Source of the DNA: a bacterium
GTDB taxonomy: Bacteria > JAJVIF01 > JAPKYR01
Assembly (NCBI GenBank): GCA_026394215.1
Contig: JAPKYR010000154.1
Span: forward strand, 1 to 48,614
Length of the DNA: 48,614 nt
Reading direction: 5' to 3'
Made by a program: the position numbers and the translations under genes
Notes under the pieces: model-generated
The model's database searches: none
Seen by the model: only the letters and a program-made list of their open reading frames with translations
Told to the model about the DNA's origin: nothing
In this document: positions 3,887 through 39,888 of the stretch, in pieces
Numbering within the stretch: the stretch's first letter is position 1
Layout: each line of letters begins with the position of its first letter

Positions 3887-5011
3887 ATGCCTGACAGGAC
3901 GAAAAAGAAGCAACCGGGATTATCACTCTACGATCTCACGCCGACCGAGCTCGAGAGCTTTTTCCTGTCGATTGGCGAAAAGCCGTATCGCGCGCGACAG
4001 GTGCTTGACTTTCTGTACAGGCATCCGGTCGAACGTTTTGACGAGATGACCACACTGTCGAAAGAGTTAAGGGACAGGTTATCCGAAACAGTGAGGCTGG
4101 CGCCGATCACCCTTCGCGCGACGGTTGAATCGGAAGACGGGACGATCAAGCACGGCTACGAGGTTTCTGATCCAGCGAGGAATAAGATCTACCTCGAAAG
4201 TGTCTGGATGCCTGCCGACAATACGGATGTCGGCGATTCGGATTACGGGGGCGGGCAAGTCCAACCCGATCGCATAGCGCTATGTATTTCATCGCAGCTC
4301 GGATGCGCGGCGGGATGCACATTCTGCGCGACCGGGATGGCCGGGCTGAAAGGACAACTGACGACTGGGGAGATTATTTATCAAGTTGTGCATGCGCGGA
4401 AGCTCTACGGGAAACTTCCCGATTCGGTGCTTTTCATGGGGATGGGCGAGCCGATGCATAATTATGAGGCGGTCGTATCGGCAATTGAGATTCTGACGAG
4501 TGAGGCCGGGATGGCCTTGTCGCCAAGGCGGATAGTGGTATCGACTTGCGGCGAGATTGAAAAGCTACGGGAGTTTCGCGCAAAATTTCCAAAAGTAAGA
4601 ATTGCGATAAGCCTGAACGCCGCGTCGGACACGCTGCGGACGTCATAGATGCCGATTAATGCGACATACGATCTGAAATCGGTCCTGGAATTCATAAAGG
4701 ATCAGGACACAACGGGTCGGGAAAAATCGGGACGGGACAAGATCACGCTCGAGTATGTGGTTCTTGCGGGATTAAACGACACGCAGGATCAGATAAAAAG
4801 GTTGTCGGAATTGCTCCGTCCGTTCGCGAGGAATGTGAAGTTGAATCTGATACCGTACAACCGTGTGGAGGGGCTGGATTACAAGTCGCCGAAGATTCAG
4901 GGGGTATTTGAAATTCAGGAGTACCTTGTCGGCTGCGGTATAAGCACGTTTATACGTAAGAACCGCGGCCGTGAAGCATCGGCGGCATGCGGGCAATTAT
5001 CGGGGAGATAG
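3887..5011 (+). pseudogene. rlmN: 23S rRNA (adenine-2503-C2)-methyltransferase RlmN, interrupted by an in-frame TAG at 4646-4648
   Basis: Radical SAM CxxxCxxC (SSQLGCAAGCTFCATGMAG) and ISLNAASDTLRTS-stop-MPINATYDLKSV in the same frame, then C-terminal AACGQLSG. 3887..4648 and 4649..5011 share phase. Confidence 0.9.
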
Positions 5012-5050
5012 GGTGTGTAGCCATCAAATGAATTGCCTGGCCACTAAAAC

Positions 5051-5404
5051 TTAATCAGGCTTATCCAAATCGCTGATAATACTCCTCACACCTTTGACTA
5101 TTACCGGTAGTTCGTTTTTAACAATATCCCATATAATATTTATCGAAATCTCGAAATACTGGTGAGCAAGCCTGTCCCTGAGACCTTTCATCTCTTTCCA
5201 TGGGATCTGAGGATATTCTTTGCAAAATTCATCGGGAAGTTTTTTCGCGGCTTCACCCATGATTTCAAGGTTCCGGACCACAGCATCCTGCGTCCATTCG
5301 TCATTTTCAAGCTCACTAATATCCCGAACATTCCTTGTGTTTTCTAGGACTCTCTCCGCCCTCTCAAGAATATCAACGAGATAATCTCTAAAATCCCTCG
5401 ACAT
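5051..5404 (-). CDS. HepT-like (DUF86) protein, probable toxin of a MntA/HepT pair
   Basis: Rx4H-type motif (GLRDRLAHQYFEI), size and adjacency to a minimal nucleotidyltransferase; the genes overlap slightly. Confidence 0.85.
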   Translation of the reverse strand: MSRDFRDYLVDILERAERVLENTRNVRDISELENDEWTQDAVVRNLEIMGEAAKKLPDEFCKEYPQIPWKEMKGLRDRLAHQYFEISINIIWDIVKNELPVIVKGVRSIISDLDKPD

Positions 5405-5681
5405 AGCGCACCTCGCTGAAAATCCTCTCGCGCGACCTCTCCCTGACCGTCCCGATCAGCACAAGGTCCACATTCCGATTGAAAATTTCCTCAAGAAGGA
5501 AACACAATCCCATGTACACCCTGAAAGTCTCATTTTCGAGTTGGACAAGAAAATCGATGTCGCTTTCATCGGTGGCTTCACCGCGAACAACAGAGCCGAA
5601 AACACCGAGTTTTTTAACTCCGAAAGCCTTTATTGCTTCCCTGTTCCGCTCGATTTTTTTTATTACTTCTTCCAGGGTCAT
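5388..5681 (-). CDS. MntA-like minimal nucleotidyltransferase, probable antitoxin
   Basis: GSVVRGEATDESDIDFLV (GSx10DxD). Start taken at internal Met MTLEEVIKK (5681); the ORF track extends to 5780. Confidence 0.85.
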   Translation of the reverse strand: MTLEEVIKKIERNREAIKAFGVKKLGVFGSVVRGEATDESDIDFLVQLENETFRVYMGLCFLLEEIFNRNVDLVLIGTVRERSRERIFSEVRYVEGF

Positions 5682-12387: not shown

Positions 12388-15300
12388 CTAAATAATCACC
12401 AGCAAAAATCCTTCCAGCGCGACATTGTCGTACCCCACGGCGTAAATAAGCGTCCCGTCGGTGGCAAGATGCGCGATACCGAGTTTCTGAACTCCGCCGA
12501 CATATTGGATATTCGATGGATCGCTGATATCAAAAGTCACTAAACCCCAGTCGGGTTCGGTTACATACGCGTAGTCGCCGATTAACACAATCCCCTGCGC
12601 CCCGGTTCCAGGCCCATCGGTTGAGCTATCCAGCAACGTGGGCGTCTGGGGAGTTGAAGAAGCATCCCATGACGTCAGCGCACCCTCGTAAGCTTTCACG
12701 AACAGATTTGTCCCGTCGGCGATGATCGCATGAGTGTGCCCGGTCGCGAAATGCCCAAGCTCGACCGGAGCCGCGGGATTCGCAAGGCCGAGGACCTCGA
12801 TGCCCTCGTTATACCGGGTTAGATAGAGGTAGTTGTTGATAAACGCCATGTGATAAGCATTGCCGAGAAAATCGAGCGATACCTCCGCGCCGGCAGTAAT
12901 GTTGTACGGGTCGGTGACATTTATCGGCACCAGCGCGTTCGAGAATGAGCCGGCAAGGTACACCCAGTTATTTTTCTTCGCGATCGCGCGGCCATCATCG
13001 AAATTAACAAAATCCGCTGTCGATGGAGAGGCCGGATTGCTGAGGTTGACAACGGAAAATTTGTCGTATCCTCCGCAGTAGGCATAGTTCCCCTCGCAGA
13101 TAAGGGAGTATACGTAAGGCATCGATCCCCCGTAGTTCCATGTGCCGACCTGGGGCGGATCGACCGGATTGGTTCGGTCATAAACCTTCAATCCGCCGAA
13201 ATCTGCGACCACAAGTAGGGTATCGGTAATCGCAACAGCCTGCGGATCGAGCGCGGAATACTCATTTATAATTACCGGGGCCGCCGGATCGCCGTGGCTT
13301 GTCGGTGTTGCGCTCACAACAATGATGTTTGTATCCTCATTACCCGTCTGGTCTTCAGCACGAACAGCTAAATAATACGGCTGATCGTTCAGGAGATTAG
13401 GAACCGTGTAGCGATAATCGGCCGCCGAACCCGTTTGAGGAGTCACATTCGCTAATTTAGTGGCGGTACCGAAATCGAACGGCAGCGTTTGGGTGTAATA
13501 GACGTTATATTTCACAGGCGGCGTGAATACATCGATTGCTTTATTCCATTCTATTTTTACCGATTTGTAGTACGATGTCGCAGTCTGGGCTCCAACGGTG
13601 GATTCCCACACAGGCGCTTCGTCATCGATTCCGACATACAGGCTATCCGAGGAAATCGGGAATTGATCGTATGGAGCCGCTATTTTCTGTACGGTAGCAA
13701 TATCCTTGTAAGTCTGAAGCGAGAATGTCACGTTCGTGTCTTCCGGAGCACCGGAAATATCGGCGGCGAAAAATAGCACAAGAGGATTATGATAATTCCA
13801 TGCTATCCCGAGATCGCTCAACCGGACGCGATTCAGCCCCATTGGATTTTTCTGAATCAGGAGAGTGTCGCCGCCATCCAACTCGCCATTTCCGTTGGCG
13901 TCCCGATAAAGCCTCGCGAGTGTCCACGAGTCGTTCGGCATGGTCCCGCTCTTGTTAATTATTACCTCATCCAGCGTCGCTGCCGAGGTAATGCTCAGAA
14001 TCAATTTCAACACGGGGACATTAACGCTCTCCACATTAGTAAATGAGGGCGCGAGACTTTCACCCGTCACCGATAAATCATTCACTATTTTATGGATATT
14101 GATCCCGTATGTACTCGAATTCCCGACAGCGGGAGAGTACACCTTTATGTAATACGTCAGGCCTGAATATGCTGCTAGAATAACCTCTTCAAAACTAGTC
14201 CCGGCATGATTTACTACTATCCCCTGCCCTACAAGATTAGTCATAGCCAGGTCCGAATAAACCGCGATATCGAGATTTTCTCCATAGGTGAAAATGTCCA
14301 GATTAAACTGCCATGTCCCCGTACTCGGGGCGGTGAACCGATACAAATCCGTCGTATCCAAATATGGATTACCCGGAACATCGTGAATCGAGTCATAGAT
14401 CGGAGTATCGGGAGCGCTTACAGGCACAAAACCATTGCCATCCTCCAGACTCTCATACCTGTCCGACCCATAGACGGCTCTCAGAGCATTCACGCGGCCA
14501 TTGCCTGTCTGGTCATCAAACCCGGGCGCGCCGATATCGTCCGCAGTCTGGACAAGCCTGTCCCAGCACCACTGGCCGTTTTTATCGGGATTGAAGCTTT
14601 TAATCAGAGCCATTACGCCGGCAGTGACGGGACATGCGCAAGATGTCCCGGCGAAAAAGCCGTTGCTCCCTCCGTCCCAGTAAGTGTTATCGCCCTCGCC
14701 ATGCGTTGTCAGATACAATTCCCCAAATCCCATCACATCCAGTGAAGGGCCATAGCAGGAACCCCAGTACCAGCCGGAATACCATGAAATTCTGGCTTCG
14801 TCTATCGGGTTATGTGATTCATCGAACGGGATGGTCGCGCCGATTGTCATGACCGATTGATATAGACTCGGATACCGGATGGTCGTGCTATCCTCATTTC
14901 CTGCCGATGCCATAAGAATCACGCCATCGCCGTCATTCCAGCAGGAATTGCACTGGTTTTCCATAATTGTCGAATAGTCCCATGTGCCAAATGACATGCT
15001 GCAAATATCTGCTTCGTTGACCCTCGCGTACTCGAGCGCTCCGACTACGCTGGATTCATAGATCGGCCCTCCACCTGACAAATCCACCTTCAGTGCCATT
15101 ATTTTCACACCGGGCGCGATTCCCGAAACACCCTTGAAATTGTCCTGAACCGCCGCGACAATTCCCGCGCACGCGCTTCCATGATAACTCGCGTAATAAC
15201 CATCATCATTTGGGTCATTATCATTACTAACGAAGTCCCATCCCCAGGTGTCGTCGATTTTTCCATTACCGTCATCATCTATGCCATTGCCGGGAATTTC

Positions 15301-16047
15301 GTCCGCGTTATTCCATAGCGCGCCGGCGAGATCCACATGGGTTTTACGCACGCCGGTGTCGATGATAGCCACAACTACATCGCTTGAGCCTTTCGATTCG
15401 TTCCATACAAGAGATGCGCCAAGCATCGCCGGTCCCCACTGCTCATAGACACTGTCTCTGGGATCGTCGCCCTCATCCGGTCCTTCCCATAACGGATCGT
15501 TCGGAAAATAAAACGCTTCGTCGAATGTATAAATCAGGTTGGGTTCAGCTATTTGAACCGAGGGATCCGATTGAAGGATTTTGACCATGTCCGGGACGGG
15601 AGTCCCGTCTGTAATCCGAAGTTCAAAAACGGTACCCCATCGGCATGCGATAGTCTGCAAATTATTGAGTTTATTTTTGCTGAATATTTCGGTTGCCTGG
15701 GATGGGGTAATATCATCGTTCAGAACGACCAGCACCTCATCTTCAGCCCATCTGTCAGCCTGTGTTGAAATGGGTACCTGTGAAGACCCTGATAGATTAT
15801 CGGACGACGAAAGTGTAGCCGAATTAGAGCCTGCACCATTGATTATTGGATCGGCGCTTCGGGAATCCGGGATCGCGGGATTATTTTTTCCGGAGCAACC
15901 CGAAATTATTAAAAATATCAAAGCGATTACGAATGCTTTCCATTGCATGTTTGATACCATTTTAAAGCGAAAAGCCATATGGAAAATCACTTCCTTGTAA
16001 GAATACAATTCGTTACAAAATGCAACATAAGGTGAAGAAATTCTCAA
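12388..16047 (-). CDS. secreted subtilisin-like (S8) serine protease lipoprotein with fervidolysin-like propeptide and C-terminal LVIVD-type repeats
   Basis: Lipobox LIISGCSG; propeptide DEVLVVLNDDITPSQA; triad VVAIIDTGVRKTHVDLAG / YHGSACAGIVAA / FFAGTSCACPVTAG; repeats LVVADFGGLKVYDRTNPVDPPQVG. True start probably 15978 or 15957. Confidence 0.9.
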   Translation of the reverse strand: MRISSPYVAFCNELYSYKEVIFHMAFRFKMVSNMQWKAFVIALIFLIISGCSGKNNPAIPDSRSADPIINGAGSNSATLSSSDNLSGSSQVPISTQADRWAEDEVLVVLNDDITPSQATEIFSKNKLNNLQTIACRWGTVFELRITDGTPVPDMVKILQSDPSVQIAEPNLIYTFDEAFYFPNDPLWEGPDEGDDPRDSVYEQWGPAMLGASLVWNESKGSSDVVVAIIDTGVRKTHVDLAGALWNNADEIPGNGIDDDGNGKIDDTWGWDFVSNDNDPNDDGYYASYHGSACAGIVAAVQDNFKGVSGIAPGVKIMALKVDLSGGGPIYESSVVGALEYARVNEADICSMSFGTWDYSTIMENQCNSCWNDGDGVILMASAGNEDSTTIRYPSLYQSVMTIGATIPFDESHNPIDEARISWYSGWYWGSCYGPSLDVMGFGELYLTTHGEGDNTYWDGGSNGFFAGTSCACPVTAGVMALIKSFNPDKNGQWCWDRLVQTADDIGAPGFDDQTGNGRVNALRAVYGSDRYESLEDGNGFVPVSAPDTPIYDSIHDVPGNPYLDTTDLYRFTAPSTGTWQFNLDIFTYGENLDIAVYSDLAMTNLVGQGIVVNHAGTSFEEVILAAYSGLTYYIKVYSPAVGNSSTYGINIHKIVNDLSVTGESLAPSFTNVESVNVPVLKLILSITSAATLDEVIINKSGTMPNDSWTLARLYRDANGNGELDGGDTLLIQKNPMGLNRVRLSDLGIAWNYHNPLVLFFAADISGAPEDTNVTFSLQTYKDIATVQKIAAPYDQFPISSDSLYVGIDDEAPVWESTVGAQTATSYYKSVKIEWNKAIDVFTPPVKYNVYYTQTLPFDFGTATKLANVTPQTGSAADYRYTVPNLLNDQPYYLAVRAEDQTGNEDTNIIVVSATPTSHGDPAAPVIINEYSALDPQAVAITDTLLVVADFGGLKVYDRTNPVDPPQVGTWNYGGSMPYVYSLICEGNYAYCGGYDKFSVVNLSNPASPSTADFVNFDDGRAIAKKNNWVYLAGSFSNALVPINVTDPYNITAGAEVSLDFLGNAYHMAFINNYLYLTRYNEGIEVLGLANPAAPVELGHFATGHTHAIIADGTNLFVKAYEGALTSWDASSTPQTPTLLDSSTDGPGTGAQGIVLIGDYAYVTEPDWGLVTFDISDPSNIQYVGGVQKLGIAHLATDGTLIYAVGYDNVALEGFLLVII

Positions 16048-20710: not shown

Positions 20711-20748
20711 CAAAAAAAAAAGACCGCTTTATGCGATCGTTTTTTTTA
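20711..20748 (-). terminator. rho-independent-like terminator after the tRNA fragment
   Basis: AAAAAAAAAAGACCGCTTTATGCGATCGTTTTTTTT: short stem with one mismatch flanked by A and T runs. Confidence 0.6.
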
Positions 20749-20757
20749 ATCAGGTGG

Positions 20758-20815
20758 TCGGGCAGCCGGGATTTGAACCCGGGACCCCTAGCCCCCCATG
20801 CTAGTGCGCTACCGG
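20758..20815 (-). pseudogene. truncated tRNA-Pro fragment (D-loop to 3' end)
   Basis: 58 nt identical to 21248..21305 of the intact tRNA-Pro, then abrupt divergence; no 5' half. Confidence 0.9.
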
Positions 20816-20879
20816 TTCCGAGAAATAACACCTGTGGAAATACAAGCATTAATCATGGTATGGATTGGGGCTGATTTGT

Positions 20880-21182
20880 TTATACGGGGAAACCGAGTTT
20901 CTTCAAATTTTCGAAAAAATCCTTAATGTGAGTAACTAACCTTTCATCGTAAAAATCTGATCGAGAATCGCTCCAATTAGGCATACATATAATCATATCT
21001 AAATCATATGTAAACTCGCCAAGAATATCCTCCATGGCTTCTGGAATCGGTTTACCGTTCCATGTCAACTCGCCGCGCCAATCGGCGGAAATAAACGGTA
21101 AGAGTATATCGTTCTCGTCATTCCCATCTTTCATTACTTTTTTCAGGGATTCTATAAATTGAATCAAATCAAGGTTGGACAT
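20880..21182 (-). CDS. hypothetical acidic protein lying between the two tRNA-Pro copies
   Basis: MSNLDLIQFIESLKKVMKDGNDENDILLPFISADWRGELTWNG...; SD-like GGGGGAT upstream of ATG 21182 (ORF track starts at 21203). Confidence 0.65.
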   Translation of the reverse strand: MSNLDLIQFIESLKKVMKDGNDENDILLPFISADWRGELTWNGKPIPEAMEDILGEFTYDLDMIICMPNWSDSRSDFYDERLVTHIKDFFENLKKLGFPV

Positions 21183-21247
21183 AAAAAGGATCCCCCGCTC
21201 CATGGATCTACTCTGTACGCCAAATCCGTATCCGCAAAAAGAACATA

Positions 21248-21321
21248 TCGGGCAGCCGGGATTTGAACCCGGGACCCCTAGCCCCCCATGCTAGTGCGCT
21301 ACCGGGCTGCGCTACTGCCCG
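21248..21321 (-). tRNA. tRNA-Pro(GGG)
   Basis: CGGGCAG...CTAGC-ATGGGGG-GCTAG...GGTTCAAATCC...CTGCCCG-A; anticodon GGG. Confidence 0.95.
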
Positions 21322-21420
21322 ACATCTTCAATGTTTGCAGAAACTCCAACTCATCCATTATAGCAAAATAATCCGAATATGTTCCGGATTATCAGCCAAA
21401 AGAGGATTATTTTCATTTGG

Positions 21421-22137: not shown

Positions 22138-22190
22138 CCTCACCCCCTGGCCCCCTCTCCAAATTTTGGAGAGGGGTTAAGGGGGTGAGG
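22138..22190. repeat. intergenic inverted repeat
   Basis: CCTCACCCCCT-ggc-CCCCTCTCCAAA / TTTGGAGAGGGG-tta-AGGGGGTGAGG. Confidence 0.9.
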
Positions 22191-34911: not shown

Positions 34912-35055
34912 CACAGCCGAATTCCGGAGGCTGAATTCCGAAATTCAACCGATGGAAGCGGGGGACCCATTTTACGGGGCGAATCGTCGCTTTGACGTAG
35001 GATACCCTTTTCGGTCCGAGCCCGTCAGCTAACCTCGCAGGCTTCAAAAGGGAGC
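34912..35055 (+). ncRNA. c-di-AMP (ydaO/yuaA) riboswitch aptamer
   Basis: GCGGGGGACCCATTTTACGGGGCGAATC...GTAGGATACCCTTTTCGGTCCGAGCCCGTCAGCTAACCTCGCAGGC matches the conserved ydaO core; precedes a K+ transporter gene. Ends approximate. Confidence 0.92.
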
Positions 35056-35264
35056 TCCTCCAGACTTTACTCTGGTGTCTCCTCAGAGTTTATATCCGGA
35101 GGCGGCTTATATGCCATCAAGAATACTGCTCGTAAATAAAGTTCTTCTGCAGAAGAAATCCCACACAACCTGATTCCTTTCCACAATATCTCAAACCAAC
35201 CCGGTTTCCGCTTAAAGGATATTGAGTTTGCCTTTTCCTATTTGAGAAAAGAAGGTTGAGTTAT

Positions 35265-39820: not shown

Positions 39821-39888
39821 GTAGAACAGCACAGCAGTGCGTCATACAGCCAGCAAAACCAGTAAAACGCACTGCCGTGCTGTTCTAC
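39821..39888. repeat. 22-bp inverted repeat (21/22)
   Basis: GTAGAACAGCACAGCAGTGCGT ... ACGCACTGCCGTGCTGTTCTAC. Confidence 0.95.

Follow-up and report, generated by a model that had tools for sequence, protein, structure and literature searches.

A 490-bp unit with one small gene at a bacterial tRNA-Pro gene, probably an integrase-less remnant of site-specific integration

The window analyzed here is a whole contig of 48.6 kb, to which all positions refer, from a draft bacterial genome of 321 contigs (G000). The comparison set consisted of four genomes of the phylum, G000 included, among which G001 is the sole congener and G003 belongs to the same class. The window contains an array of five tRNA genes in the order Lys-Glu-Asp-Phe-Pro, and a partial copy of the last gene is located downstream of the intact one, separated from it by a short insert with a single open reading frame (ORF). 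The features of the locus are as follows.

20711-20748 (hairpin from about 20713), minus strand: terminator-like hairpin followed by a T-run, presumed to be the original terminator of the tRNA operon (consensus scan)
20755-20757, minus strand: encoded CCA adjoining the displaced fragment on its 3' side (read from the sequence)
20758-20815, minus strand: 58-nt core, the displaced tRNA-Pro 3' fragment (exact repeat; partial tRNA match of 23.3 bits, under the family cut-off)
20816-21247, no strand assigned: insert between the cores, 432 bp, 39.1% GC versus 48.3% for the window
20880-21182, minus strand: ORF of 100 amino acids, or 107 amino acids from an upstream ATG at 21203, the only ORF of the insert
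21247-21322, minus strand: intact tRNA-Pro(GGG), the last gene of the array (ARAGORN, Rfam)
21248-21305, minus strand: 58-nt core inside the intact tRNA-Pro (exact repeat)

A repeat search of the window identified the two cores as an exact direct repeat of 58 nt in the same orientation, with a spacing of 490 bp, which covers the tRNA from the D-loop to the discriminator base. Outside of these 58 nt, the 5' part of the tRNA was matched at only 3 of 17 positions (counted by eye), which is the level expected by chance, and the claim of an earlier note on this DNA that a 58-nt duplication of the tRNA-Pro 3' end is followed by a loss of identity was thereby borne out. The window contained two occurrences of a 35-nt core of the repeat, whereas 100 shuffled sequences contained none, even when 3 mismatches were allowed. 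A covariance search of the whole G000 genome recovered 39 complete tRNAs and a single clear partial match, which was the fragment at 20758-20815; 2 additional matches with E-values above 2 were treated as noise. The fragment thus lies downstream of an intact tRNA gene in the same orientation and ends at the tRNA 3' end, which is the arrangement left by integration into the 3' end of a tRNA gene.

The two copies differ in what follows them. An encoded CCA and the terminator-like hairpin come after the displaced fragment, whereas the intact tRNA-Pro has no encoded CCA and continues with the letters TATGTTC. The earlier note had correctly placed a terminator beside the displaced fragment, where the hairpin was indeed seen, but had overlooked the difference in the CCA. 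The hairpin was recognized by consensus only, and such sites were no more numerous in the region than in shuffled sequences. The CCA is encoded by all 4 other tRNAs of the array and by the tRNA-Pro genes of both G001 and G003, as well as by 25 of the 32 inspected tRNAs in G000, the other 7 being without it, so that its absence from the tRNA-Pro gene is not unique. Since the CCA and the terminator follow the displaced copy, and since the CCA is encoded in the rest of the array and in the relatives, the original 3' end of the tRNA-Pro gene is most simply the displaced one, in which case the 3' part of the present intact gene came with the insert. The expected arrangement of the empty site is the 5' half of tRNA-Pro, the core and CCACCTGATTAAAAAAAACGATCGC. 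A simple tandem duplication is disfavored because it would have left identical sequences after the two copies. By GC content, the insert ranked in the bottom 4% of equal-length windows.

The ORF fills most of the insert and is co-directed with the tRNA array, with the displaced terminator located after it. It is preceded by a G-rich stretch resembling a ribosome-binding site, GGGGGATCC, at positions 21188-21196, and it is longer than expected by chance (P = 0.02 for 100 codons or more). No terminator was found between the tRNA-Pro gene and the ORF in the consensus scan, and the ORF would therefore form the final gene of the tRNA operon, with transcription stopping at the displaced terminator. 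No relatives were identified in Pfam, PHROGs, IMG/VR, phage and plasmid records or the 3 other genomes of the phylum. A comparison with the PDB gave one match below 0.001 (8e1e, named SG122_C3, E = 0.0005), which spanned some 30 residues and in which no single stretch passed alone, and a fold predicted from the single sequence with modest confidence (mean pLDDT 70) had no significant structural match. The 490-bp unit contained no recombinase, its one ORF having no recombinase match, and the lone ORF and missing integrase that had been claimed for the locus were both confirmed.

The unit was present as a single copy in G000. A genome-wide search for more tRNA-flanked copies, as suggested in the earlier note, returned none beyond this one, and neither the unit nor the ORF was found at further tRNA sites in G000, in the 3 other genomes of the phylum or in the phage, plasmid and viral-contig collections. 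The exact pattern of the tRNA-Pro core was not found in IMG/VR, and the searches recovered no larger parent element containing the ORF.

The five-tRNA array is conserved in G001, where it is located on contig C238 with the tRNA-Pro gene at its end. Another contig of this genome, C53, contained a 65-nt tRNA-Pro 3' fragment with CCA, which had one mismatch to the tRNA of the same genome. On one side, the fragment is flanked by a gene for a subtilase-like lipoprotein that is collinear with positions 14383-15669 of the window, and on the other side by a 396-amino-acid ORF, a 188-amino-acid ORF and a tyrosine integrase gene (PF00589, E = 5e-23). In G000, but not in G001, a segment of 4.7 kb with genes for a second lipoprotein, a DUF302 protein and MscL separates the subtilase gene from the fragment. 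The subtilase-like gene has paralogues in G000, which lowers the certainty of the assignment, but the copy in the window was the best match, and the locus on C53 is therefore probably orthologous to that in the window. One base pair in the T-stem is G-C in both copies in G000 and A-T in both copies in G001 and in G003. Because the 2 copies within each genome match each other, the insertions in G000 and G001 are probably separate, lineage-specific events, unless the copies were homogenized by gene conversion. Under either history, the tRNA-Pro gene is a recurrent, reused integration site in the genus.

Close relatives had been proposed as a place to look for an empty site, but none was found in the congener: G001, the only one examined, has the site occupied by a different insert. 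The tRNA-Pro gene of G003 has no displaced fragment but is situated at another locus. None of the genomes examined contained 2 tRNA-Pro(GGG) genes.

No tyrosine integrase gene was identified on the contig of the window. A relative of the integrase near the fragment in G001, with 73% DNA identity, was found on contig C137 of G000 and was considered as a helper. It was rejected since the contig contained no tRNA-Pro core, only chance matches of 12 to 13 nt, and no link is claimed between this integrase and the 490-bp unit. On C137 (loci L061 and L059), the integrase is of the mobile type and is encoded beside a DnaN-like gene and a run of large genes that by eye resemble those for a DNA methyltransferase, a restriction enzyme and a helicase, similar to a defense island.

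We also noted that a large serine recombinase gene, represented by its 3' part, adjoins the intact tRNA-Pro gene on contig C238 of G001 (4998-5630 of locus L021, minus strand), with a reading frame that runs through the tRNA. By itself, this tail matched no recombinase in Pfam or the PDB and no phage or plasmid record; it was identified through a full-length homolog in G003 with 29% identity and the domains PF00239, PF07508 and PF13408. The gene for this homolog (430-2145 of locus L064) ends over the 3' end of a tRNA-Asn gene. One study describes integration by serine recombinases at tRNA genes as rare (PMC3218068), and another stated that it was not known (PMC4383910). In G003, a search of 60 kb on the side of the recombinase gave no displaced tRNA-Asn fragment that exceeded the length of chance matches. 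We rejected a serine recombinase as the agent, both for this reason and because of the length of the cores. Serine integrases usually leave short cores, and a tyrosine integrase therefore fits better with the cores of 58 to 65 nt observed here.

Other repeats and a riboswitch were observed elsewhere in the window. A 53-bp palindrome with 26-nt arms (CCTCACCCCCTGGCCCC...) at positions 22138-22190 has dozens of copies with 79% to 98% identity across the G000 genome and resembles a REP family. An inverted repeat at positions 39821-39888 (GTAGAACAGCAC...GTGCTGTTCTAC) has an arm sequence in common with a larger inverted repeat at positions 50-268 of locus L021 on contig C238 of G001, and the two possibly belong to a shared MITE-like or REP-like family. 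A c-di-AMP (ydaO/yuaA) riboswitch aptamer was identified at positions 34919-35059 on the plus strand, with a score of 89.4 bits.

The earlier note had read the locus as the attL/attR geometry of a minimal element targeted to a tRNA gene. The geometry is supported by the displacement of the CCA and the terminator, by the foreign composition of the insert and by the congener's own displaced fragment, and neither of the observations named as counterevidence, a degraded second full-length tRNA-Pro gene or conservation of the insert as intergenic DNA, was made. The part of the claim that concerns integration is thus well supported. The reading as a minimal element is less secure, since there is no sign of movement of the 490-bp unit and a remnant of internal deletion needs fewer assumptions. 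We consider it probable that site-specific integration at the tRNA-Pro gene was followed by deletion, leaving a remnant without an integrase. A mobile element would have integrated into the 3' half of the tRNA-Pro(GGG) gene by an attachment site containing a copy of the final 58 nt of the tRNA. Element DNA, which lacked a CCA, would thereby have made the gene complete again, and the host's own 3' end would have been displaced downstream together with its CCA and the operon terminator. Internal deletion of this larger element, putatively of the tyrosine-integrase type, would then have produced the present unit, which consists of a 58-nt core and 432 bp with one small gene. Although an element integrated at a tRNA gene is expected to contain an integrase, none was present, whereas attL and attR were kept and the genes for recombination and transfer were gone. 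Two identical copies of 58 nt located 490 bp apart could be deleted by recombination, and their perfect identity therefore suggests either that the insertion was recent or that there has been selection on the ORF.

Among the alternatives, the foremost is that the unit is a non-autonomous cassette with one gene, which as a 490-bp circle would integrate and excise at tRNA-Pro by means of a recombinase provided in trans and be expressed from the tRNA operon. The compactness of the unit, with one intact ORF co-directed with the tRNA array and placed before a terminator, is consistent with such a cassette, as are the perfect identity of the cores and the presence of recombinases in the genus, one of which is located near the tRNA-Pro fragment in G001. 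We nevertheless regard it as unlikely, given the single copy in G000, the absence of the unit from the other genomes of the phylum and from the phage, plasmid and viral-contig collections, and the lack of a tRNA-Pro core near the related integrase on C137. Slightly less probable is the specific version in which the tRNA 3' end is the sole recombination site of a mobile cassette that uses the recombinases of larger elements and places its ORF as the last cistron before the terminator. If true, single genes could spread unnoticed through tRNA operons. The insert contains no recombinase, and 58 nt could suffice for rare homologous recombination, so that homologous or illegitimate recombination within the repeat may have joined DNA bearing the ORF and the 3' end of a tRNA-Pro gene to the array without any site specificity. 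However, the discriminator base is precisely where the core stops, and G001 shows the geometry of tRNA targeting a second time, there with recombinase genes nearby, which makes this explanation improbable.

We considered it very unlikely that unrelated sequences were joined via the short repeat during assembly, even though the genome is a draft and 58 nt is close to the k-mer sizes of assemblers. The repeat and the insert are located well inside the contig, and the same geometry was found in G001, where one contig has a k141 name, indicating a k-mer longer than the 65-nt repeat of that genome. We give the least credence of all to the decay in place of a second tRNA-Pro gene. The fragment does retain a CCA and a terminator, as a genuine tRNA gene would, but its 58 nt are perfectly kept while similarity upstream drops abruptly to the chance level, and no relative has two such genes. 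The integrated and subsequently deleted element thus remains our preferred reading, and the locus documents that, in a bacterial phylum with little sampling, integration has made repeated use of a tRNA gene.

Integron cassettes consist of one gene and one recombination site, borrow an integrase and depend on an outside promoter. The 490-bp unit likewise combines one gene with one recombination site and would be expressed from an outside promoter, but its site is a tRNA 3' end rather than attC, and no integron integrase or array was identified. The integrative element pSAM2 of Streptomyces also targets the 3' end of tRNA-Pro and has a core of similar length; unlike the unit, it is large, autonomous and conjugative, and it encodes both an integrase and an excisionase. 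Tycheposons, described with reference to work in Prochlorococcus, are elements of 4 to 200 kb that are bordered by tRNAs, have their own recombinase and are tied to tyrosine recombinases (PMC10872708); the unit shares the tRNA border with these but is small and without a recombinase.

CIMEs and microCIMEs are cis-mobilizable elements, derived from ICEs or IMEs by decay with attL and attR retained, and surveys of streptococci have described CIMEs of 1.2 to 13 kb with cargo and gene-free microCIMEs of 130 to 220 bp (PMC5704250, PMC7563491). CIMEs were judged to be very prevalent (PMC7563491, PMC5704250), and small att-flanked leftovers without an integrase were described as common (PMC7563491). 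The unit is similar in its tiny size, its att repeats at the 3' end of a gene and the loss of all recombination genes, but with 490 bp and one gene it falls between the two classes, and it stands alone rather than in tandem with an ICE or IME. With an origin from an ICE or IME being only conjectural, we say that it resembles a CIME and do not call it one. As in the islands of the Islander catalogue of genomic islands in tRNA genes, the tRNA is restored at one end and a displaced 3' fragment in the same orientation is found at the other. That catalogue requires candidates to have an integrase and at least 2 kb (PMC4383910), neither of which the unit has. Units of this kind are therefore missing from the catalogue, and the one described here is an example of an att-flanked element below its filters for size and integrase.
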